DNA of 64,000 nt from Flavobacteriales bacterium (GTDB lineage: Bacteria > Bacteroidota > Bacteroidia > Flavobacteriales_E > Vicingaceae): the NCBI GenBank assembly GCA_002706365.1, contig PALM01000030.1, forward strand, positions 1-64,000, read 5' to 3'. Below the pieces are notes generated by a model, which saw only the letters and a list, made by a program, of their open reading frames with translations, made no database searches and was not told the origin of the DNA. Positions 27,346 through 62,254 of the stretch are shown here, in pieces (position 1 is the first letter of the stretch; every line of letters begins with the position of its first letter). The position numbers and the translations under genes were made by a program.

Positions 27346-29334
27346 TTATTTCAAGATGCTGATCTTGCGACTTACTTCATAATCACCAACTCTTAGGTTC
27401 ACGAAGTAGAATCCATTTTCAAGATCTTGAGTATTCAGTTGAATTCTCTGATTTCCTTGAGTCAATGTTCCAAAGTCTTCAATGCTCACTACTTTTCCAG
27501 TAACATCAGTGATACGAGCTTGAACATTAGCTGAATTCTCCATGAAGAACTCCATATTGGTAAACGGAAGATCTGATGGGTTTGGATAGATATTCAAGCT
27601 ATTCTCCAATACTTTTTCTTGTCCATCTACAGAAGTTGCAATACCCAACTTCGCTCTGTTTACGTTGAAGATCTCGTACTGAGAAATATCAGTTCCACCT
27701 TCTTTAGAAACGATTCCAATTAGGCTTACATGAGATGCATCCCAAGAGTTGTTCAAAGTAAAGTTGAATGTTCTAGTATAAGGAGTATTCAATGCATAGC
27801 TAGAAGGAATAACAGTTACATCTCCAAAAGTACTTGGCAAGATATCTCTCATTACTCTTCTGTGAGGATAGTTTGTAATTGGGTTACCTCTTCCAGCAAA
27901 TGGGTGACCAGTTTGAGTGTTGTAAGCGTTGATCTGATCATAACCAGTTCCACTACCAATTACACTATCTTCAACGATCATCAAGCTGATGCTTAGATTT
28001 CCACCTGGCTGTACATAATCAACAAATGAAGCTGTTACATTCACAGTCATGTTTCTGTTTGTTGGATTATACACACCACCCAAGTTCACATCCACAGGAG
28101 AACCTGCATTTGCTTGAGCAAGAGAACGAATAGCCCAAGTACTTGCTGTCCAGTTTGGATAACCAGCTCCTCTTCCGAATGCTACATCAGATTCTCCATC
28201 GAAAAGCTTTCTATCAACCATTCCTGTTGGAGCTGCATTCACTCCTAAAGTAGAACAAAGTGCAGAAGCTTCCGTATTGGTCATCTGATCAGTACTAAAG
28301 CAAGAGTGCACACTCACAGTAGCCACATTTGCATAGTTTGATTCCATTTGTGCAGCTACCCAAGCTCCATCCGGACAAAACTGACAAACTGCAGTAGTGA
28401 ACTGCTCAAAAAGAGCTGTTTTAGGTACAGTATTACCCAAGTTTACAAAGATGTCTGCTGTAGCAGTATCATTTGCAGTATTACCATCAGCTACACCATT
28501 TGGCAAGCTAGTCCATACTCTAAGATTACTGAAGTTACCAGCGTTTGAAGGAGTCCAGCTAACCTGGTGACTAAATGTGCTACTGTTTCCAGTTGCAATA
28601 TTCACAGATAGCGTATCCATGTTTACCGGTCCGTTGTTCACCGACCAATTAACTACTACTGAAGTAAGAGTATTCACACCATTGTTTGCTACAGTACCTG
28701 TGATAGCAGTAGAGCTAGCATTAGTTACTACAGATGGAACAGTGATAGATGCTAAAGAAGCATCATCAGAAGCCGCATCATATACTTTCACATTATCGAT
28801 CAACAGTAGAAATTGATCATTGGAGTTATTTCTCCAGCCAATGTAAATGGTATCATTTGCATATGCTGAAAGGTTAATGGTTCTTCTTGTCCAAGCTGCA
28901 TTTTCAGCAGTTGTTGAGAACAATGTGGTTGACAGTCCAGCTACATCAGGAGTAGTTGTAGACAGCAACAATTCGTAACCATCAGGGAAATTAGGATCCT
29001 GAGCTTTAGCGTCGAACTCCAATACTGGAGTGGAGCCCGTAATGATCATAGGAGTAATCATATAATCATTGGCAGCACCTGCAGGTGAATACCAAGAATT
29101 ACTTACAGCAGCAGAATCTCCAACACCAGTAGTATCGAAGTCTTCTCTTACTACCCATGCATCAGTAACATATGCTACATTAGGGGCAGGAGTTCTTCCA
29201 TCTACGTCAATTAGTGTCCAATTGCTTAGCGCATTACCACCATTAAAGTTTTCAAAGAAGGCATTTTGTGCCTGAACTGATTGCACAGCTGCAATCAAGC
29301 CAAATAAAGCGAGAAAATAGTTGAGTTTTTTCAT
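27346..29334 (-). CDS. Secreted choice-of-anchor J plus Omp28-domain protein with T9SS sorting domain
   Basis: A 662-aa secreted protein. Signal peptide about 1-22 (ending VQAQ); choice-of-anchor J domain about 23-190, nearly identical to that of the gene at 25408-27126; CARDB-like Ig segment about 195-300; Omp28-like domain about 305-560 with a thioredoxin-type CxxC pair (TTAVCQFCPDG); T9SS type A sorting domain from about 590 (NIYPNPSDLPFTNM). The Omp28 half is nearly identical to that of the gene at 29434-31569. It is thus a chimera of its two neighbours. The CxxC suggests redox activity or disulfide formation, but this is inference. Its own terminator lies at 27302-27318. Confidence 0.9.
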   Translation of the reverse strand: MKKLNYFLALFGLIAAVQSVQAQNAFFENFNGGNALSNWTLIDVDGRTPAPNVAYVTDAWVVREDFDTTGVGDSAAVSNSWYSPAGAANDYMITPMIITGSTPVLEFDAKAQDPNFPDGYELLLSTTTPDVAGLSTTLFSTTAENAAWTRRTINLSAYANDTIYIGWRNNSNDQFLLLIDNVKVYDAASDDASLASITVPSVVTNASSTAITGTVANNGVNTLTSVVVNWSVNNGPVNMDTLSVNIATGNSSTFSHQVSWTPSNAGNFSNLRVWTSLPNGVADGNTANDTATADIFVNLGNTVPKTALFEQFTTAVCQFCPDGAWVAAQMESNYANVATVSVHSCFSTDQMTNTEASALCSTLGVNAAPTGMVDRKLFDGESDVAFGRGAGYPNWTASTWAIRSLAQANAGSPVDVNLGGVYNPTNRNMTVNVTASFVDYVQPGGNLSISLMIVEDSVIGSGTGYDQINAYNTQTGHPFAGRGNPITNYPHRRVMRDILPSTFGDVTVIPSSYALNTPYTRTFNFTLNNSWDASHVSLIGIVSKEGGTDISQYEIFNVNRAKLGIATSVDGQEKVLENSLNIYPNPSDLPFTNMEFFMENSANVQARITDVTGKVVSIEDFGTLTQGNQRIQLNTQDLENGFYFVNLRVGDYEVSRKISILK

Positions 29335-29389
29335 ATTTAATTTTATTAGGTCTCCAAATTACCCAAATGAGATTGAAGAAAATAAAAAA

Positions 29390-29408
29390 GCCCCGACAAT
29401 GTCGGGGC
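29390..29408 (-). terminator. Intrinsic terminator after the 29.4-kb T9SS gene
   Basis: The stem GCCCCGAC/GTCGGGGC (29390-29397 with 29401-29408) has an AAT loop and a T6 tract on the minus strand. It shares its core with the terminator at 27302-27318. Confidence 0.88.
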
Positions 29409-29433
29409 CCTTTCATTTATTATGAATTTGATC

Positions 29434-31569
29434 TTATTTCAAGATGCTGATCTTACGGCTTACTTCATACTCACCTACTTTTAGGTTCACGAAGTAGAAT
29501 CCATTTTCAAGATCCTGAGTATTCAACTGAATTCTCTGATTTCCTTGAGTCAAGGTTCCAAAGTCTTCAATGCTCACTACTTTACCTGTGATGTCGGTAA
29601 TACGAGCTTGAACGAATGCTGAGTTCTCCATGTAGAATTCTACATTCGTAAATGGAAGATTAGTTGGGTTTGGATAGATATTCAAAGTCTTATCCAATGA
29701 CTTGTTCTCGTCTATTGCGGTAGCAATACTCAATTTCTCTCTATCGATATTGTAGATCTCGTATTGACCAATTTCTGGACCACCATCCTTAGACACTATA
29801 CCAATCAAAGTCACATGACTTGCATCCCATGCATTGTTCAAAGTGAAATTGAATTGACGGTTGTAAGGTGTATTCAATGCGTAGTTCGCAGGAATCGCTG
29901 CAACATCTCCAAAAGTACTTGGCAAGATATCTCTCATCACTCTTCTGTGTGGATAGTTGGTAATTGGATTACCTCTTCCAGCAAATGGGTGTCCAGTAGA
30001 AGTGTTATAAGCATTGATCTGATCATAACCAGTTCCACTACCAATTACACTATCTTCAACGATCATCAAGCTGATTCCAAGATCTCCTCCAGGCTCTGTA
30101 AAGTCAGTAAATGAAGCAGTTACATTCACAGTGATGTTTCTTGTAACAGGATCATAGATACCACCAACTACTACATCAACTGGTGAACCAGCATTTGCTT
30201 GAGAAAGTGAACGTGAAGCCCATGTACTAGCTGTCCAGTTAGGATAACCAGCACCTCTTCCAAATGCCACATCTGACTCAGATGGGAAAAGCTTTCTATC
30301 TACCATTCCTGTTGGTGCAGCATTCACTCCCAAAGTAGCACATAGATCTACAGCCTCTTGATTGGTCATTTGATCTGTACTAAAGCAAGAGTGGATACTC
30401 ACTGTAGCTACATTTGCATAGTTCGACTCCATTTGTCCGGCAACCCAAGCTCCATCTGGACAGAACTGGCAAACAGCAGTAGTAAACTGCTCAAACAATG
30501 CAGTTTTTGCAACTGTATTTCCATTACCTACTGCAACTTCAAGATTTAAAGTATCATTACTAGGAACTTGATCTACTCCATTGTTAGGAGCCTCTAACCA
30601 AGCCTCAATTGTGTTTGATGCAGAAGTAGATGAAGGGTTCCACTGAATAGTATGGTTGATTGTTGCTTGAGCAGCATAGGCTAAGTTCAAAGCAATTGTA
30701 TCACTTTGAATAGCTCCATTGTTTATTCTGTAGTGAAATTCAACAGATGTAAGTGTAGTTGTTCCAAGGTTTCTAATATCAGCACTAATAGTAGTGTTTG
30801 TATTCACCAATACCTTTGAAGCTACATTGATACTAGCAATTTCTGCATCTAAGCTCGGAGGTGTTCCAGGAGTAAACTGATAGTAAGAGTTATCTGCTGG
30901 AGTAGGACCATTAGTAGTGTTAGAAGTAATGTTCGGTGATCCTGGAACTACAAATGCAGTTGCAGTATCGATTTGAACACCAACTGTAAGTGTGTTAGGA
31001 CCTGTATTCGTACGTTGGTCAACAACATAAATATTATTTGATGTTTCTTCCAAAACAACAGACCAATAAGCCCATCCAGCTCCAAGAGTAGAGTATGAAT
31101 TGAACATGATCCAATGCTGACGATTAGGTGCAGTACCGAAAGTCTTAGAAATGATATAATCACCTGTACCACCAGCAAAAAGCCCCCAAATTACTACAGA
31201 GTTATCTGGAATCGAAGTTGAAGGAAGGTTTGCATTAGTTGATGTTGGATTAACGGTTGAAGCCACATCAAATGTTACTACACCGTTTGTACTAACCTTG
31301 TAAGAAGTAACAGCTGTACTATCAAACTGGAAAGAAAATGGAATAGTCTGGTTCGCTGTCCAACTAGGGGTTGTTGAGGTATTCACAGAACCTGTGAATA
31401 ATGTTGCCCAACCAGCAGGTAAACCACCACCAACAGGGTATTCATTATCGTTGTTCAAATTACCGGGATTCACACCGGCATTAATATTAGAGGAAACAAT
31501 GTACTGGGCTTGAGTAGAGAATGCAAAAACGCATAAAGCCGCAGCCAAGAGAGTAGTTATCTTTTTCAT
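29434..31569 (-). CDS. Secreted Omp28-domain protein with T9SS sorting domain
   Basis: A 711-aa secreted protein. Signal peptide about 1-21 (ending STQAQ). Residues about 25-235 are a beta-rich domain I do not recognise, with low-complexity Thr/Ser/Asn content; it is not the choice-of-anchor J module of the neighbours. A CARDB-like Ig segment (about 240-350) is followed by an Omp28-like domain (about 355-605, same CQFCPDG motif) and a T9SS type A sorting domain (from about 640, NIYPNPTNLPFTNV). From the CARDB end to the stop it is a close copy of 27346-29334. Upstream lies a 190-bp spacer divergent from the ABC transporter gene. Confidence 0.88.
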   Translation of the reverse strand: MKKITTLLAAALCVFAFSTQAQYIVSSNINAGVNPGNLNNDNEYPVGGGLPAGWATLFTGSVNTSTTPSWTANQTIPFSFQFDSTAVTSYKVSTNGVVTFDVASTVNPTSTNANLPSTSIPDNSVVIWGLFAGGTGDYIISKTFGTAPNRQHWIMFNSYSTLGAGWAYWSVVLEETSNNIYVVDQRTNTGPNTLTVGVQIDTATAFVVPGSPNITSNTTNGPTPADNSYYQFTPGTPPSLDAEIASINVASKVLVNTNTTISADIRNLGTTTLTSVEFHYRINNGAIQSDTIALNLAYAAQATINHTIQWNPSSTSASNTIEAWLEAPNNGVDQVPSNDTLNLEVAVGNGNTVAKTALFEQFTTAVCQFCPDGAWVAGQMESNYANVATVSIHSCFSTDQMTNQEAVDLCATLGVNAAPTGMVDRKLFPSESDVAFGRGAGYPNWTASTWASRSLSQANAGSPVDVVVGGIYDPVTRNITVNVTASFTDFTEPGGDLGISLMIVEDSVIGSGTGYDQINAYNTSTGHPFAGRGNPITNYPHRRVMRDILPSTFGDVAAIPANYALNTPYNRQFNFTLNNAWDASHVTLIGIVSKDGGPEIGQYEIYNIDREKLSIATAIDENKSLDKTLNIYPNPTNLPFTNVEFYMENSAFVQARITDITGKVVSIEDFGTLTQGNQRIQLNTQDLENGFYFVNLKVGEYEVSRKISILK

Positions 31570-31761: not shown

Positions 31762-32703
31762 ATGAGTATCATTCTAAAAGCTGAAGATATTGTCAAGGAA
31801 TACGCCAATCACAAGGCACTTGACCATGTGAGTTTGGAAGTCCCAAAGGGTAAGATCTTTGGATTGCTCGGTCCGAATGGAGCGGGGAAAACTTCCATGA
31901 TCCGTATCATCAATCAAATTACAGCACCGGATTCAGGTAGAATCTATTTTGATGGTGAACCATTAAAAGCTAGACATGTAGAGCAGATTGGTTATTTACC
32001 CGAAGAAAGAGGTCTTTACAAGAAAATGGAAGTTGGAGAGCAAGCTCTTTATTTAGCCCAATTAAAGGGAATGAAGAAGAGTGAGGCCAAAGAAAGACTT
32101 AAAGATTGGTTCAAGAAATTTGAAATCTCCCAATGGTGGAATAAGAAAGTGGAAGAACTTTCGAAAGGGATGGCTCAAAAAGTACAGTTCATCGTAACTG
32201 TGCTTCACGAACCTAAACTTTTAATCCTGGATGAGCCATTTTCTGGATTTGACCCAATCAATACAAATCTTGTTAAGTCAGAGATCCTAAGGCTCAAAGA
32301 AGAAGGATCAACCATCATACTTTCCACGCATAATATGGGTTCTGTTGAAGAGATCTGCGAGCACATTGCCTTGATCAATCGTTCAAAGAAGATCTTGGAT
32401 GGAGAAGTAAAACAGATCCAAGAAGACTTCAAGGAAGGTGTTTATGAGCTAAAGTTCAAAGGAAATATGATTGCCTTTACCAATGCATTGTGGACCAATT
32501 GCGAGCTATTGGAGCATAAGGAAGGTGGAGCATACAACACTGCCAGAGTAAGGCTCAAAGAAGGAAGATCGCCGAATGCATTCTTGCAAGGCATATTGCC
32601 GGAAGTGGAGGTATTTGGGTTGACGGAAGTTGTGCCCTCCATGAACGATATATTTATTCGACAAGTTGAATCTGTAAATGAAATTGAAGAACCTAGAATC
32701 TAG
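31762..32703 (+). CDS. ABC transporter ATP-binding protein (NatA/CcmA-like)
   Basis: ATPase subunit of an ABC-2-type exporter, 313 aa. Walker A is GPNGAGKT (37-44), the signature motif LSKGMAQKVQ, Walker B LLILDEPFSGFDP, and the H-loop STHNMG. A C-terminal extension of about 90 residues follows, as in NatA-like proteins. The permease gene starts 168 bp downstream on the same strand, so the pair forms an exporter; NatAB homologues export sodium, but substrate here is unknown. The last four residues (EPRI) and the stop TAG are encoded by the first units of a 7-bp tandem tract, so the native C-terminus may have been replaced. Confidence 0.92.
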   Translation: MSIILKAEDIVKEYANHKALDHVSLEVPKGKIFGLLGPNGAGKTSMIRIINQITAPDSGRIYFDGEPLKARHVEQIGYLPEERGLYKKMEVGEQALYLAQLKGMKKSEAKERLKDWFKKFEISQWWNKKVEELSKGMAQKVQFIVTVLHEPKLLILDEPFSGFDPINTNLVKSEILRLKEEGSTIILSTHNMGSVEEICEHIALINRSKKILDGEVKQIQEDFKEGVYELKFKGNMIAFTNALWTNCELLEHKEGGAYNTARVRLKEGRSPNAFLQGILPEVEVFGLTEVVPSMNDIFIRQVESVNEIEEPRI

Positions 32704-32718
32704 AACCTAGAGTCTAGA
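32691..32718. repeat. 7-bp-register tract (NNCTAGA type), 4 units, overlapping the ABC ATPase stop
   Basis: Four exact-register heptamers (ACCTAGA, ATCTAGA, ACCTAGA, GTCTAGA). The ABC ATPase stop codon TAG at 32701-32703 lies inside the second unit. Confidence 0.88.
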
Positions 32719-32729
32719 CACATTAGAGT

Positions 32730-32756
32730 CAAAGAAAATGAATAAAATCAGCCTAA
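32730..32756 (+). repeat. Duplicate of the ABC permease translation start, copy 1
   Basis: This 27-bp stretch (CAAAGAAAATGAATAAAATC and seven more bases) matches 32863-32889, the real start of the permease gene, at 26 of 27 positions. It includes the ATG (32738) and the codons for MNKISL, then runs off into repeat sequence and stops after 19 codons. The copies are 133 bp apart, exactly 19 x 7. A duplicated gene 5' end flanking a repeat array looks like the footprint of an insertion or a template-switching event. Confidence 0.85.
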
Positions 32757-32759
32757 AGA

Positions 32760-32864
32760 GCAAATCAGAAATCAGAAATCTGAAATCGGAAAAGTGAAAT
32801 ATGAAAGTTTGAGCTTGGAGTACGACTAAAAGTCCAGCTTCCGGCATCCAGCTTCTAGTATCCA
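32760..32864. repeat. 7-bp-register tract of mixed unit types, 15 units
   Basis: Fifteen heptamers in constant register fill the space between the two copies of the permease start. Units change from AGAAATC and TGAAATC types to TGGAGTA, AAGTCCA and then GCATCCA/GCTTCTA types, without loss of the 7-bp phase. No open frame of interest. Confidence 0.8.
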
Positions 32865-32870
32865 AAGAAA

Positions 32871-34208
32871 ATGAATAAAATCAGCTTAATCATACAAAGA
32901 GAGTATACAAGCCGAGTGAAGAAGAAATCCTTCATTGTGATGAGTATTCTAGGTCCATTGTTAATTGCATCAATTTTAGTGGTGCCAATTTGGCTATCTA
33001 CTCAAGATGAGGATAGTCAGCTCGTTGAAGTGGTCGACGAGAGTGGATTATTCATCAATCAATTTGAAAACACTGATGAAGTGGAATTCCAATATGAATT
33101 TCGCTCTTTAGCGGAGGCTCAGAAAGGGCTTAATGATGGTGGGCCATACACAGCAGTCTTACATATTCCTAAAGTGGTTGTTAGCTTGCCAAAGACGGTT
33201 CAGTTGTTCTACAAAGACAAGCCAAAAGGCAGTTCAATAAACTTTATGGAAGATCAGATCGCAAAAGTGATCGAGAGCAAAAAGCTAGAAGATCTTCACG
33301 GACTCACATTAGATCAGATCTCTGGTTTGAGACCTGATGTGCAAATTGTGAGCAATAAAATGACTTCTGATGGAGAAAGTGAAGAAACTGCTGGTGGTTT
33401 GGCTTTGGGAGTAGGATTTGTGCTTGCCTTCTTTATTTATTTCTTCATTTTCCTTTTTGGAGTTCAAGTGATGCGAGGCGTAATTGAGGAGAAGACCAGC
33501 CGGATCGTTGAGGTGATCATCTCATCTGTGAAGCCATTTCAATTGATGATGGGTAAGATCATTGGCATTGCATTGGTAGCTGTCACCCAGTTCTTGATCT
33601 GGGTAGTTTTAAGTACTGTTTTGATTACCGGAGCCCAAAGCTTTTTTGCAGAAGACTTGAAAAAGGCCCAAACAGAGCAAGTAAAGCAAATGGAACAATT
33701 CAGTCCGGAGATCAAAGAAGCGATGGAAGAAGAGTCGGCTGAAGTGGGATTGGCACAGCGACTTAATGACCGATTGGGTAGAATAAATTTCCCTCTTATC
33801 CTTTCCTGCTTCTTATTCTATTTCTTGGGTGGTTACTTACTCTATGGCTCTCTGTTCGCAGCCATTGGTTCCGCAGTTGACAATGAAACTGACACCCAGC
33901 AATTCATGCTGCCTGTGACCATTCCATTGATCATCTCGATCGTAATTGCTCAAGTGGTTATTGAAAATCCAGATGGCCAATTGGCATTTTGGAGTTCTAT
34001 TATCCCCCTCACCTCCCCCATTATTATGATGATACGTATTCCTGTGGGTGTGGATACTTGGGAGCTATTACTCTCAATGGGTCTTTTGATCGCCACTTTC
34101 ATCGGAACCACTTGGTTGGCCGCAAGGATCTACCGCACCGGAATCTTGATGTATGGGAAGAAGGTTAATTTTAAAGAGATTGGGAAGTGGATCTTTTACC
34201 GCAGCTAG
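32871..34208 (+). CDS. ABC-2 type transporter permease (NatB-like)
   Basis: Membrane subunit of the exporter whose ATPase is encoded just upstream, 445 aa. One transmembrane helix near the N-terminus (about 22-44) is followed by an extracytoplasmic domain of about 130 residues, then five to six membrane helices (about 175-420), the arrangement of NatB/YhaP-type ABC-2 permeases. A conserved segment VIEEKTSRIVEVIISSVKP, typical of the family, sits at the cytoplasmic side. A decoy copy of its start codon region lies 133 bp upstream. No signal peptide is cleaved. Confidence 0.9.
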   Translation: MNKISLIIQREYTSRVKKKSFIVMSILGPLLIASILVVPIWLSTQDEDSQLVEVVDESGLFINQFENTDEVEFQYEFRSLAEAQKGLNDGGPYTAVLHIPKVVVSLPKTVQLFYKDKPKGSSINFMEDQIAKVIESKKLEDLHGLTLDQISGLRPDVQIVSNKMTSDGESEETAGGLALGVGFVLAFFIYFFIFLFGVQVMRGVIEEKTSRIVEVIISSVKPFQLMMGKIIGIALVAVTQFLIWVVLSTVLITGAQSFFAEDLKKAQTEQVKQMEQFSPEIKEAMEEESAEVGLAQRLNDRLGRINFPLILSCFLFYFLGGYLLYGSLFAAIGSAVDNETDTQQFMLPVTIPLIISIVIAQVVIENPDGQLAFWSSIIPLTSPIIMMIRIPVGVDTWELLLSMGLLIATFIGTTWLAARIYRTGILMYGKKVNFKEIGKWIFYRS

Positions 34209-34215
34209 CTGCGGT

Positions 34216-34278
34216 GAATTACGAATGTGGAATTACGAATTACGAATGAATCTAGATTCTAGTTCTAGATTCTAGACT
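34216..34278. repeat. 7-bp-register tract joining GAATTAC and TCTAGAT types, 9 units
   Basis: Nine heptamers in one register begin 7 bp after the permease stop. The first five are of the GAATTAC/GAATGTG kind and the last four of the TCTAGAT/CTAGACT kind. Two unrelated unit types therefore share one phase. Confidence 0.85.
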
Positions 34279-34298
34279 CTTATCCTTTAATTTGCTTT

Positions 34299-50915: not shown

Positions 50916-52082
50916 ATGATAGATTTCGAGAATACGGAGATTGCTTTTGCAAACAAAAGTGATCGACATTTACGCAAGACTTACTTTGCATTTCGATTGA
51001 TCGCCAATAGATGGTTGAATTTAATCGGAATTAGTCTTCTGCGTACAGCATTATTCCTAAGATTACCAGTCCAGCCGATTATCAGAGCTACGGTATTCAA
51101 TGTTTTTTGTGGTGGAGAGAGTATTGAGGATTGCGAGGATCGCATCCAGGAATTGGGTCAATTCAATGTAAAGACCATACTCGACTATTCAGTAGAAGGC
51201 AAACAAAGAGAGGCCGACTTCGATCGTACCTTAGGTAAGGCAGTTGCTTCGATTGAGCGTGCCAGTAAGGACACGAATGTTCCCTTCTGTGTATTCAAAG
51301 TAACAGGCTTAATGCCGTTCGACCTGCTAAAGAAAGTGAGTGCCCAAGAAGAGCTCACCGAGGAAGAATCACTTGTATTCCTGAGGGGAAGGAACAGAGT
51401 TGATATCATTTGTCAGAATGCCTTCAATGCCGGAATCCCGGTAATGATCGATGCTGAAGAAAGTTGGATACAAGATGCCATAGATGAAATTGCCTTGATC
51501 ATGATGCATAGGTACAATCAAGAGCGACCATTGGTTTATAATACAGCTCAAATGTATCGTCACGACAGATTAGATTACATCAAAAACCTTTATCAGCAGT
51601 CGATCGAAGAGAAATTCTTCGTTGGATTGAAGTTGGTAAGAGGAGCCTATATGGAGAAAGAGCGCGCTAGAGCAGCTAGAAAAGGTTATACAGATCCAAT
51701 TCAGCCTAATAAAGCAGCTACCGATGCCGATTTCAATAGAGGATTAGAGTTCTGTATCGATCGTTTAGACCGAATTGCATTGATCTGCGCAACCCATAAT
51801 GAGGAGAGCAACAGATACCTCACTGAGCTAATGGAGGAAAGAGAAATCATCGCCGATCACCCTAGGGTTCACTTCTCTCAATTGCTTGGGATGAGTGATC
51901 ACATTAGCTTCAATTTGGCGAAAGTCCATTACAATGTGACCAAATATGTGCCTTACGGCCCGATAAAAGAAGTAATGCCCTATTTAATCCGCAGAGCCAA
52001 TGAGAACACCTCAATTGCAGGACAGACGAGTAGAGAGTTGAGGCTGATCGAGGCAGAGATGAAGCGAAGAAGCGAGAAATGA
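50916..52082 (+). CDS. Proline dehydrogenase
   Basis: FAD-dependent enzyme oxidising L-proline to delta-1-pyrroline-5-carboxylate, 388 aa, monofunctional (no P5C dehydrogenase or DNA-binding domain). The beta/alpha-barrel motifs of the family are seen: MIDAEESW, KLVRGAYMEKER, and the C-terminal substrate motif YLIRRANENTS with paired arginines. It begins 5 bp after fabD. The P5C dehydrogenase gene is not in the window. A 7-bp tandem tract begins 3 bp after its stop. Confidence 0.95.
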   Translation: MIDFENTEIAFANKSDRHLRKTYFAFRLIANRWLNLIGISLLRTALFLRLPVQPIIRATVFNVFCGGESIEDCEDRIQELGQFNVKTILDYSVEGKQREADFDRTLGKAVASIERASKDTNVPFCVFKVTGLMPFDLLKKVSAQEELTEEESLVFLRGRNRVDIICQNAFNAGIPVMIDAEESWIQDAIDEIALIMMHRYNQERPLVYNTAQMYRHDRLDYIKNLYQQSIEEKFFVGLKLVRGAYMEKERARAARKGYTDPIQPNKAATDADFNRGLEFCIDRLDRIALICATHNEESNRYLTELMEEREIIADHPRVHFSQLLGMSDHISFNLAKVHYNVTKYVPYGPIKEVMPYLIRRANENTSIAGQTSRELRLIEAEMKRRSEK

Positions 52083-52085
52083 GAA

Positions 52086-52148
52086 CCTAGAGCCTAGAAT
52101 CTAGAGTCTAGACTAATTGTCAATTTTCAATCTGTGAATGATGAATGA
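52086..52148. repeat. 7-bp-register tract (CCTAGAG then TGAATGA types), 9 units
   Basis: Nine heptamers in one register begin 3 bp after the proline dehydrogenase stop. Four are of the NCTAGAN type, and the next five are TAATTGT, CAATTTT, CAATCTG and two TGAATGA units. Confidence 0.85.
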
Positions 52149-55075: not shown

Positions 55076-55837
55076 ATGAATCAAACCAAAATCAGAGTCT
55101 CCGCCGTCTCCTACCTCAACACCATTCCTTTCATCCACGGAATTGAGAATTCGCCTGCCCTTTTAGAACAGATTGAATTAAGCAGAGACATCCCTTCTGA
55201 ATGTGCTAGAAAATTAATGAGCGGGGAGGTAGATCTTGGCTTAGTTCCGGTGGCCATTTTACCTCAGATGGATGAATCTTTTATCGTAACCGACTTCTGT
55301 ATAGGCGCGGTGGGTGAAGTGAGTTCAGTCTTGCTCTTCTCAGATGTTCCTTTGGAAGAGATCGAAGAGGTCTATCTTGATTATCAATCTAGGACTTCCG
55401 TTCAGCTTTGTCACATCCTCTGCAGAGAATACTGGAAAATCACACCCAAATTCATTAAAGCTGAGCCTGGTTTTGAATCAAAGATCAAGGACAAAACTGC
55501 CGGATTAGTGATCGGTGATCGTTGCTTTGGCATGAAAGGCAAGCATAAGTATCAATACGACCTATCCAAAGAGTGGTACGATTGGAAGAAACTACCGTTT
55601 GTCTTCGCTGTTTGGCTTAGTAGATCAGAATTGAGCAAGAGTTTTGAGCAAGAGTTTAATACCGCTTTGCAAAATGGCCTTGGCGACTTGATTGGAGCGA
55701 TCAAGAAATATCCTTACGAAGGACTGAGTCATGATGAGCTATTGGCTTATTTAGAGAAATCCATCGATTATCATTTGGATGATGATAAGGTGAAGGGATT
55801 GAATGAGTTTTTAGCTGCGCTAGAATCTAGAGTCTAG
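55076..55837 (+). CDS. mqnA: Chorismate dehydratase (futalosine pathway)
   Basis: First committed step of the futalosine route: dehydrates chorismate to 3-[(1-carboxyvinyl)oxy]benzoate. 253 aa from the ATG at 55076 (MNQTKIRVSAVSYLNTIPF); an upstream in-frame TTG is less likely. The family signature VSAVSYLNTIPF and the LGLVPVAIL segment are clear. No signal peptide. With mqnB and mqnD at 44.6-46.1 kb, three of the first four enzymes of the pathway are in this window, in two separate places. The last four codons (ESRV) and stop TAG come from a 7-bp tandem tract. Confidence 0.95.
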   Translation: MNQTKIRVSAVSYLNTIPFIHGIENSPALLEQIELSRDIPSECARKLMSGEVDLGLVPVAILPQMDESFIVTDFCIGAVGEVSSVLLFSDVPLEEIEEVYLDYQSRTSVQLCHILCREYWKITPKFIKAEPGFESKIKDKTAGLVIGDRCFGMKGKHKYQYDLSKEWYDWKKLPFVFAVWLSRSELSKSFEQEFNTALQNGLGDLIGAIKKYPYEGLSHDELLAYLEKSIDYHLDDDKVKGLNEFLAALESRV

Positions 55838-55853
55838 AACCTAGAGTCTAGAA
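55819..55853. repeat. 7-bp-register tract (TCTAGAG type), 5 units, overlapping the mqnA stop
   Basis: Five heptamers (GCTAGAA, TCTAGAG, TCTAGAA, CCTAGAG, TCTAGAA). The mqnA stop codon TAG (55835-55837) lies in the third unit. Confidence 0.9.
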
Positions 55854-55867
55854 ATTAAATGTAGAGT

Positions 55868-56543: not shown

Positions 56544-56603
56544 ACTCTTTCAAATTTCACACTTCGGCTCCGCTCAGGGACCAAATACAGAGACCGGATT
56601 ACA

Positions 56604-56652
56604 GATGTTAGATGTTAGATGTTAGATGTTAGATGTTAGATGTTAGATGTTA
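56604..56652. repeat. Perfect 7 x 7-bp tandem repeat (GATGTTA)
   Basis: Seven exact copies of GATGTTA. It is the most homogeneous of the heptamer tracts and so probably the youngest; a slippage-prone variable-number locus. Confidence 0.97.
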
Positions 56653-56667
56653 GAAATCTATAGAAAG

Positions 56668-56695
56668 TCTAAACTCTAATCTCTAAAATCTAAAC
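56668..56695. repeat. 7-bp-register tract (TCTAAAC type), 4 units
   Basis: TCTAAAC, TCTAATC, TCTAAAA, TCTAAAC. Roughly the reverse complement of the GATGTTA/GATTTTA arm to its left, giving an inverted pair around a short linker (56653-56667). Confidence 0.88.
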
Positions 56696-56708
56696 TCTTC
56701 TTTCACAA

Positions 56709-60910: not shown

Positions 60911-60921
60911 TTTTCTTGATA

Positions 60922-61025
60922 GATTTTAGAGATTAGATGTTAGATTTTAGATGTGCTGTGCGAATTGATGCATTAAATCTTAGAAATCTAAAAAGAGTCT
61001 AAACTCTAATATCTAAATTCTAAAC
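60922..61025. repeat. Inverted pair of 7-bp-register tracts (GATTTTA arm and TCTAAAC arm)
   Basis: Left arm 60922-60949 (GATTTTA, GAGATTA, GATGTTA, GATTTTA) and right arm 60998-61025 (TCTAAAC, TCTAATA, TCTAAAT, TCTAAAC) are largely reverse complements of each other around a 48-bp centre, as at 56604-56695. The right arm ends 2 bp before the stop codon (61028-61030) of the methyltransferase gene. Confidence 0.85.
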
Positions 61026-61027
61026 TC

Positions 61028-62254
61028 TTACTTATTATCTATTCTTTTACCTGAGAACAAACTAAACTTCCTAAACGAACATTCCAATTTACCATTCATC
61101 AAAGGAAATTTCCTCTCTGCTCTCAAGCCTATTCTTTTCAAAGCTTGAATATCAGAAGAAATGATCCAGGCATCCCAACCGGCATAGCTATGTTTGAGCT
61201 TAGTTCCGATCTCACCATAAAATTCGATCATTTTATCTTCATCTCCCAATCGCTCACCATAAGGTGGATTGAAGATCATAACACCCTTTTCGGCTGGAGG
61301 ATCCATCTTTAAGAAATCACCTTCCTGCACTTCGATGTACGATTTCATTTTTGAGACATTGATATTCACTCTTGCTGCTCTTAAAGAGCGAGCATCCTTA
61401 TCTCTAACGATGATCTTTACCGTTGGAGCTTTCGAAGATTTTCGTCCTTCTTCCAACACTTCTGCAAGCAATTCTCCATCAAAAGAGCTCCAAAACTCAA
61501 ATCCAAATCGCTCTCTCAATAGGTTGGGTGGAACATTGGCTTGAATCAAAGCCGCTTCAATTGCAATAGTTGCCGATCCACACATGGGATCCATCAAGAG
61601 TTCCTTGCCATCCCAATCTGAAAGCATCACCATTGCCGCAGCTAAAGACTCATTGATTGGAGCCTTATGTTGTTCTTTCTTATATCCTCTTTTGAATAAA
61701 GGATCGCCTGAGCTATCCAAAGATAGATCGATCTTATCTGCCCTGATATGAAGATGGATCTTGATATCGGGATTATTGCGCTCGATGTTTGGTCGCTTCT
61801 TACCTTGTTCTCTAAACCGATCGACAATCGCATCTTTCACCTTCAATAGGGCAAACTGTGAATGCGAGAAATGCTCTGAATGTACCGCAGCATCAATTGA
61901 AAAGGTAGCATCTTCTGAGAAGTAATCTTCCCATGGAAAATCCTTGGCTTGCTTGTACAATTCTTCATCTCTTCTTGCCCTGTAAGTATGGATTGGCACA
62001 AGGACTTTCAAAGCCGTTCTCAACCATAAATTGGCTTTGTACATCAATTTATGGTCACCTCTGAAGCTAACCGCACGCTTAAGTACTCTAACATTCTTTG
62101 CACCTAATGCATCCAGCTCCTTTTCTACCAATGGCTCTAGATGCTGCATGCAGGTTGCCACCATTTCAAACTCAGCTTTCTGACTACTTAGGTCGATAAA
62201 CTTGGGAGCTTCAAAACTTATACGTTTCCTTTTATTCATCTGCCAAAGATACAT
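61028..62254 (-). CDS. THUMP-domain class I rRNA methyltransferase (RlmL/YpsC-type)
   Basis: SAM-dependent 23S rRNA guanine-N2 methyltransferase, 408 aa. An N-terminal ferredoxin-like and THUMP region (about 30-165) is followed by a Rossmann methyltransferase domain with MDPMCGSATIAIEAAL and the target-base motif MIFNPPYGERLGDE (NPPY). It covers only the RlmL half of the E. coli RlmKL fusion. The start is uncertain: ATG at 62254, or 62239 (MNKRKRISF). Divergent from the symporter gene at 62343. Confidence 0.93.
   Translation of the reverse strand: MYLWQMNKRKRISFEAPKFIDLSSQKAEFEMVATCMQHLEPLVEKELDALGAKNVRVLKRAVSFRGDHKLMYKANLWLRTALKVLVPIHTYRARRDEELYKQAKDFPWEDYFSEDATFSIDAAVHSEHFSHSQFALLKVKDAIVDRFREQGKKRPNIERNNPDIKIHLHIRADKIDLSLDSSGDPLFKRGYKKEQHKAPINESLAAAMVMLSDWDGKELLMDPMCGSATIAIEAALIQANVPPNLLRERFGFEFWSSFDGELLAEVLEEGRKSSKAPTVKIIVRDKDARSLRAARVNINVSKMKSYIEVQEGDFLKMDPPAEKGVMIFNPPYGERLGDEDKMIEFYGEIGTKLKHSYAGWDAWIISSDIQALKRIGLRAERKFPLMNGKLECSFRKFSLFSGKRIDNK

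Follow-up and report, generated by a model that had tools for sequence, protein, structure and literature searches.

An apparently doubled overlap between an ABC transporter ATPase gene and its permease gene around heptamer repeats in a Flavobacteriales genome

The window analyzed here comprises 64,000 nucleotides of a Flavobacteriales bacterium (Vicingaceae; positions 1 to 64,000 of contig PALM01000030.1, assembly GCA_002706365.1). The locus of interest contains, on the forward strand, a gene for an ABC transporter ATPase (31762..32703; PF00005 and DrrA1-3_C) and a gene for an ABC-2 type permease (32871..34208; PF12698, ABC2_membrane_3). The present stop codon of the ATPase, TAG at 32701-32703, lies inside a first forward-strand heptamer array of AACCTAG/AATCTAG units (32684..32724), which occupies the former tail of that gene. 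Further downstream there are two more arrays in the same orientation, one made of AAATCAG/AAATCTG units (32761..32809) and the other of TCCAGCT/TCCGGCA/TTCTAGT units (32833..32866), the right edge of the latter, TCTAGyATC, being common to the genus-mate G001. Between them, a stretch without period-7 signal and with no strand assigned (32810..32832) forms part of an imperfect hairpin. On the other side of the ATPase gene, two adjacent and similar genes of the minus strand (27346-31569; 662 and 711 aa), whose C-terminal regions are near-identical, apparently represent a tandem gene duplication adjoining the locus.

As was reported in a preliminary description of this stretch, a block of 27 bp occurs twice on the forward strand, at 32730..32756 and at 32863..32889, with 26 of the 27 positions identical and a spacing of 133 bp (19 x 7). 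The same description was also right in that the ATG of the upstream copy opens a frame of exactly 19 codons (32738..32797, MNKISLKSKSEIRNLKSEK-stop). The 22-nt core of the block is found at these two sites only in 3,018,417 bases, even allowing two mismatches. Furthermore, among the 26 loci in which the ATPase and the permease are at least 21 bp apart, a long upstream copy of the permease start was present only in the window (score 24, the others reaching at most 9). The downstream copy holds the permease start now in use, and the ATG of the upstream copy is most likely a leftover, a decoy that should not be called as the permease start in annotation.

The space between the two copies had been described as 15 in-phase heptamers, which overstates its regularity. 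Period-7 matching was 0.78 at 32762-32809 and 0.63 at 32833-32866, and it fell to 0.31, near background, at 32810-32832; therefore, about 11 of the 15 units are real. A distance of 133 bp would be a multiple of 7 by accident in 1 of 7 cases, and the argument from phase was dropped as too weak.

The identity of the upstream copy becomes apparent when the ATPase frame is read beyond the TAG at 32701. It continues as NLESRHIRV-KENE-stop and ends with a TAA at 32743-32745, which is the octamer of the upstream copy; in the relative G006, the ATPase tail reads KAENE-stop on the same octamer. The upstream copy thus sits in the ancestral frame of the ATPase and would end that protein at the octamer. 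Since the frame finishes in KENE-stop right where the two genes formerly overlapped, this copy would be the old ATPase end together with the old permease start. The preliminary description, in which the 5' end of the permease had been copied to the far side of the array, holds as regards the duplication itself; nevertheless, the duplicated block appears to be the overlap between the end of the ATPase and the start of the permease, with its upstream copy as the ATPase-side original. In other words, the two copies read as the two halves of a doubled gene overlap.

Short gene overlaps, of the ATGA type and longer, occur in bacterial operons, and the ancestral state of this junction would be one of them, an overlap of 8 bp that was lost by its duplication around an insertion. 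The gene pair was found, through a permease search, in 58 of 60 related genomes, and the junction was examined in 36 relatives. In 22 of these, the ATPase stop and the permease start share 8 bp, with an octamer of the ATGAATAA or ATGAGTAA type, no array and one copy of the block; a 4-bp overlap is present in two others, and in four the genes are 1-5 bp apart. Among more distant Bacteroidota, the 8-bp overlap was observed at 37 of 117 loci, a set in which some genomes are counted twice. At this junction, the distance of 167 bp in the window genome compares with values between -8 and about +4 in five relatives. In the permease tree, the window genome (G000) and its only genus-mate, G001, are grouped (95/93) inside a clade of mostly overlapping members, which indicates that the overlap is ancestral and the spacing derived. 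The comparison with close relatives thus recovered the empty site that had been proposed as a check, and none of the relatives without an array has the block twice. The same duplication was not found in other relatives with separated genes (26 spaced versions of the junction). As separate cases, the relative G024 has between the ATPase and the permease a gene for a four-helix protein of the 23S_rRNA_IVP family (PF05635; L018), within a 524-bp spacer with repeats; in its sister G029, the two genes simply overlap by 8 bp.

In G001, the same junction has a 64-bp spacer made of heptamer words different from those of the window. The right edges of both spacers are alike (TCTAGCATCTACAAAGAA-ATG in G001 and TCTAGTATCCAAAGAAA-ATG in the window), and the ATPase of G001 stops, in the right frame, within ATAAATAA, one base off the octamer. 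The stretch ATAAATAA may be a candidate for an upstream copy that has lost its start, the candidate position having ATA instead of ATG. In the alignment with the upstream copy, shuffled sequences reached the score in 57-133 of 2000 trials after a post hoc deletion, and two other comparisons were not significant. Because of the similar right edge and the near-octamer stop, the insertion of the array may be older than the split between G000 and G001. At another junction, an orthologous TCTAG array is present in both genus members (L133:12938-12999 and L200:9919-9973) with the same edges, a similar number of units and altered letters, so that arrays can be old and stably inherited.

Another aspect to consider is the abundance of such arrays, for which a census was made in a 461-kb sample of the window genome, in stretches of five family members and in 291 kb of G001. 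The sample of the window genome contained 82 period-7 arrays (178/Mb), as compared with 0-44/Mb in the five family members and about 52/Mb in G001 (15 arrays). Period 7 dominates, since other periods gave 0-7 arrays each, period 14 excepted. Only 4 of the 82 arrays are inside genes, the rest being between genes or at gene edges. The arrays at the locus are built from dispersed repeat words, of which the genome holds dozens of copies: a TCTAG element of about 32 bp (32688-32719) occurs in roughly 30 other places, and an AAATCAG element of similar size (core 32761-32792) matches many other loci. The arrays belong to the already known intergenic heptamer repeats and are expanded in this lineage.

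Regarding their position, several of the junctions that carry arrays on the window contig are nearly gapless in relatives with conserved gene order (-8, 2, 6, 1, -2 and -2 bp in G015 and others; these lengths are approximate, given that genes were called by a simple longest-frame rule), and many array-free junctions keep their length (for example, 250 vs 248-255 and 342 vs 334-344 bp). The next junction of the locus, between the permease and a sigma-54 response regulator (34209-34298), has a gap of 90 bp with a forward-strand heptamer array (34215..34280) and no duplication; the gap is about 1-9 bp in five relatives and 144 bp in G001. In the 82 arrays, 25 gene stops and 2 gene starts were found (binomial p 6e-6), and stops in all six frames were present in 39 arrays vs 13.5 expected after permuting unit positions; in both cases, the arrays include related copies and the counts are not independent. 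TAG is enriched among the array-borne stops of the 461-kb sample (14/25 vs 96/347); the arrays of the sample include those of the window at 52068-52117 and 55817-55857. The heptamer arrays enter junctions with hardly any gap and come to occupy the 3' ends of genes, a point of relevance to the way in which they spread. In two other places of the window (56588-56704 and 60916-61033), a purine-led half is followed by a roughly complementary, pyrimidine-led half (AGATGTT and then TCTAAAC units), and such arrays could form long imperfect hairpins.

It had also been proposed that the duplication was a long target-site duplication, or that the array had itself arisen by a template switch. Target-site duplication did not hold for the arrays in general: direct repeats of constant length were not found around most array copies, and a long flanking direct repeat was present in only 1 of the other 74 arrays of the 461 kb, with a cross-paired control giving a similar picture at scores up to 15. 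The single array with such a repeat (L123) is in a separate repeat cluster and touches no gene edges. Since the other arrays have no flanking duplications, the mechanism that places them normally leaves none, and the duplication of the window would be a target-site duplication in form only. Concerning the template switch, the creation of the array by this means lacks support, the array consisting of dispersed words; a single source array elsewhere in the genome was sought and discarded, only pieces of about 30-55 bp matching many loci. Apart from this, long direct repeats were observed in an intergenic cluster of another repeat family (L123:2251-2275 and 2448-2472), and an intergenic repeat cluster elsewhere (L124:12349-12496) includes a block with TCTAG units, about 148 bp long, that has been copied.

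Taken together, we consider that the locus is most probably (with a probability of about 0.78) the scar of a repeat insertion into an overlapping gene pair, in which the overlap was doubled around the insert. In the ancestor, the octamer ATGAATAA would have belonged both to the stop of the ATPase and to the start of the permease. DNA consisting of heptamer words that are dispersed in this genome would then have been inserted just within the start of the permease gene, with about 27 bp across the overlap ending up on both sides of it, as in a one-off target-site duplication. Both genes would have survived in this way, the left copy keeping the end of the ATPase and the right copy the start of the permease. 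At a later time, and in this species, the tail of the ATPase would have received a TCTAG array and, with it, the earlier TAG stop; the left copy would therefore persist as a relic whose start codon looks intact but is not used.

We infer that duplication and insertion happened in one event and that selection favored the keeping of both gene ends. The order of events is only deduced, because among the genomes compared there is none with the duplication and no array, or with the array and no duplication. An insertion into an overlap would destroy one of the genes unless the overlap is copied, and for this reason, of the rare outcomes, the duplicated one would be likely to survive. The absence of arrays from most conserved overlapping junctions of the window contig fits this role of selection. 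The doubling itself may have come about through a break with staggered ends, through template switching or through a tandem duplication that preceded the insertion.

The last of these routes leads to an alternative, which we regard as unlikely, in which a short tandem duplication of the overlap (about 28 bp) came first and the heptamer arrays entered or grew between the copies later. The distance would agree with array growth between tandem copies (133 = 28 + 15 x 7), although, as we mentioned before, a multiple of 7 is weak evidence. This order would also suit arrays pieced together from several dispersed words, as though gained stepwise, and spacer words that differ between G000 and G001. 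However, a bare tandem duplication is absent from the 36 close relatives and from about 70 more distant loci.

We find it quite improbable that selection maintains the upstream copy as a regulatory decoy, a mini-gene controlling the translation of the permease after the loss of coupling through the overlap. Its ATG and the 8 bases upstream are intact, its 19-codon frame is clean, and the copies differ at one base only despite the variable spacer; nevertheless, a recent origin explains this similarity equally well, and the start is apparently missing in G001. In addition, the RNA structure of the spacer is not unusual (z -1.08), and no structure or motif evidence for an effect of the decoy start on permease expression was found. 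The notion that the arrays are mobile elements inserting with target-site duplications, of which the window locus would be an ordinary example, is slightly less probable still. The array families are dispersed over many loci with a rather constant length (about 32 bp) and sit at junctions that are nearly gapless in relatives, as expected from such elements, but the flanking repeats described above, found once in 74 arrays and inside another repeat cluster, largely refute it, and neither a constant duplication length nor an associated coding gene was seen; at the locus itself, inspection of the sequence and its genes brought no terminal inverted repeats to notice. Finally, an assembly artefact or a chance similarity is hardly credible: this genome is known from its draft assembly of 47 contigs alone, but the uniqueness of the core in 3.0 Mb excludes chance, the spacer and both copies lie within a single contig whose gene order is conserved, and assembly k-mers are typically longer than a repeat of 27 bp.

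If the locus is indeed the scar of an insertion around which the overlap was doubled, it illustrates clearly how a pair of overlapping genes can come apart with neither being damaged, the overlap being copied so that each gene retains one copy. Comparisons between genomes usually show the end states only, and in the window genome the intermediate scar is still readable. A broader proposal, which we advance tentatively and consider rather doubtful, is that array insertion recurrently dissolves overlaps and tight operon junctions throughout the genome, the arrays bringing stops in every frame to the 3' ends of genes and, at overlaps, surviving only with a duplication. If true, compact operons would be loosened in this way without breaking genes.

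With regard to known systems, intergenic direct repeats of a heptamer (TAACTGA) have been described in Beggiatoaceae, Cyanobacteria and some Bacteroidetes (MacGregor 2015, PMC4679880). They resemble the arrays of the window in their 7-bp units, their intergenic position, their patchy distribution among lineages and their absence at the same junction in relatives, and also in that they overlap upstream stop codons and carry stops in all three frames. In contrast, the words of the window belong to the TCTAG, AAATCAG and AAGCTGG families and form mosaics of short dispersed elements; the BOGUAY repeats are mostly located just before start codons, whereas those of the window genome are at gene 3' ends; and a duplicated gene overlap, present in the window, is not described for the TAACTGA repeats in the parts of that work consulted. 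The GGGAATC and GGGGA(T/C)T repeats of Xanthomonas and Nostoc (PMC4692102) are likewise heptameric, intergenic and variable between close relatives, but they are G-rich and form quadruplexes, and the words of the window are not G-rich. The target-site duplications of insertion sequences and MITE-like elements (PMC2229807) share with the window a direct repeat of host DNA on both sides of an insert and the donation of stops to neighbouring genes; unlike them, the other arrays of the window genome lack such repeats, and neither a transposase nor a constant length was observed. A literature search yielded no report of a gene-overlap duplication at an array, which is not proof of absence. Intergenic heptamer arrays were already known, as was the fact that they can be missing from relatives and can overlap stop codons (PMC4679880; PMC4692102), and the locus of the window is to be seen as a tidy evolutionary scar and not as a new kind of element.
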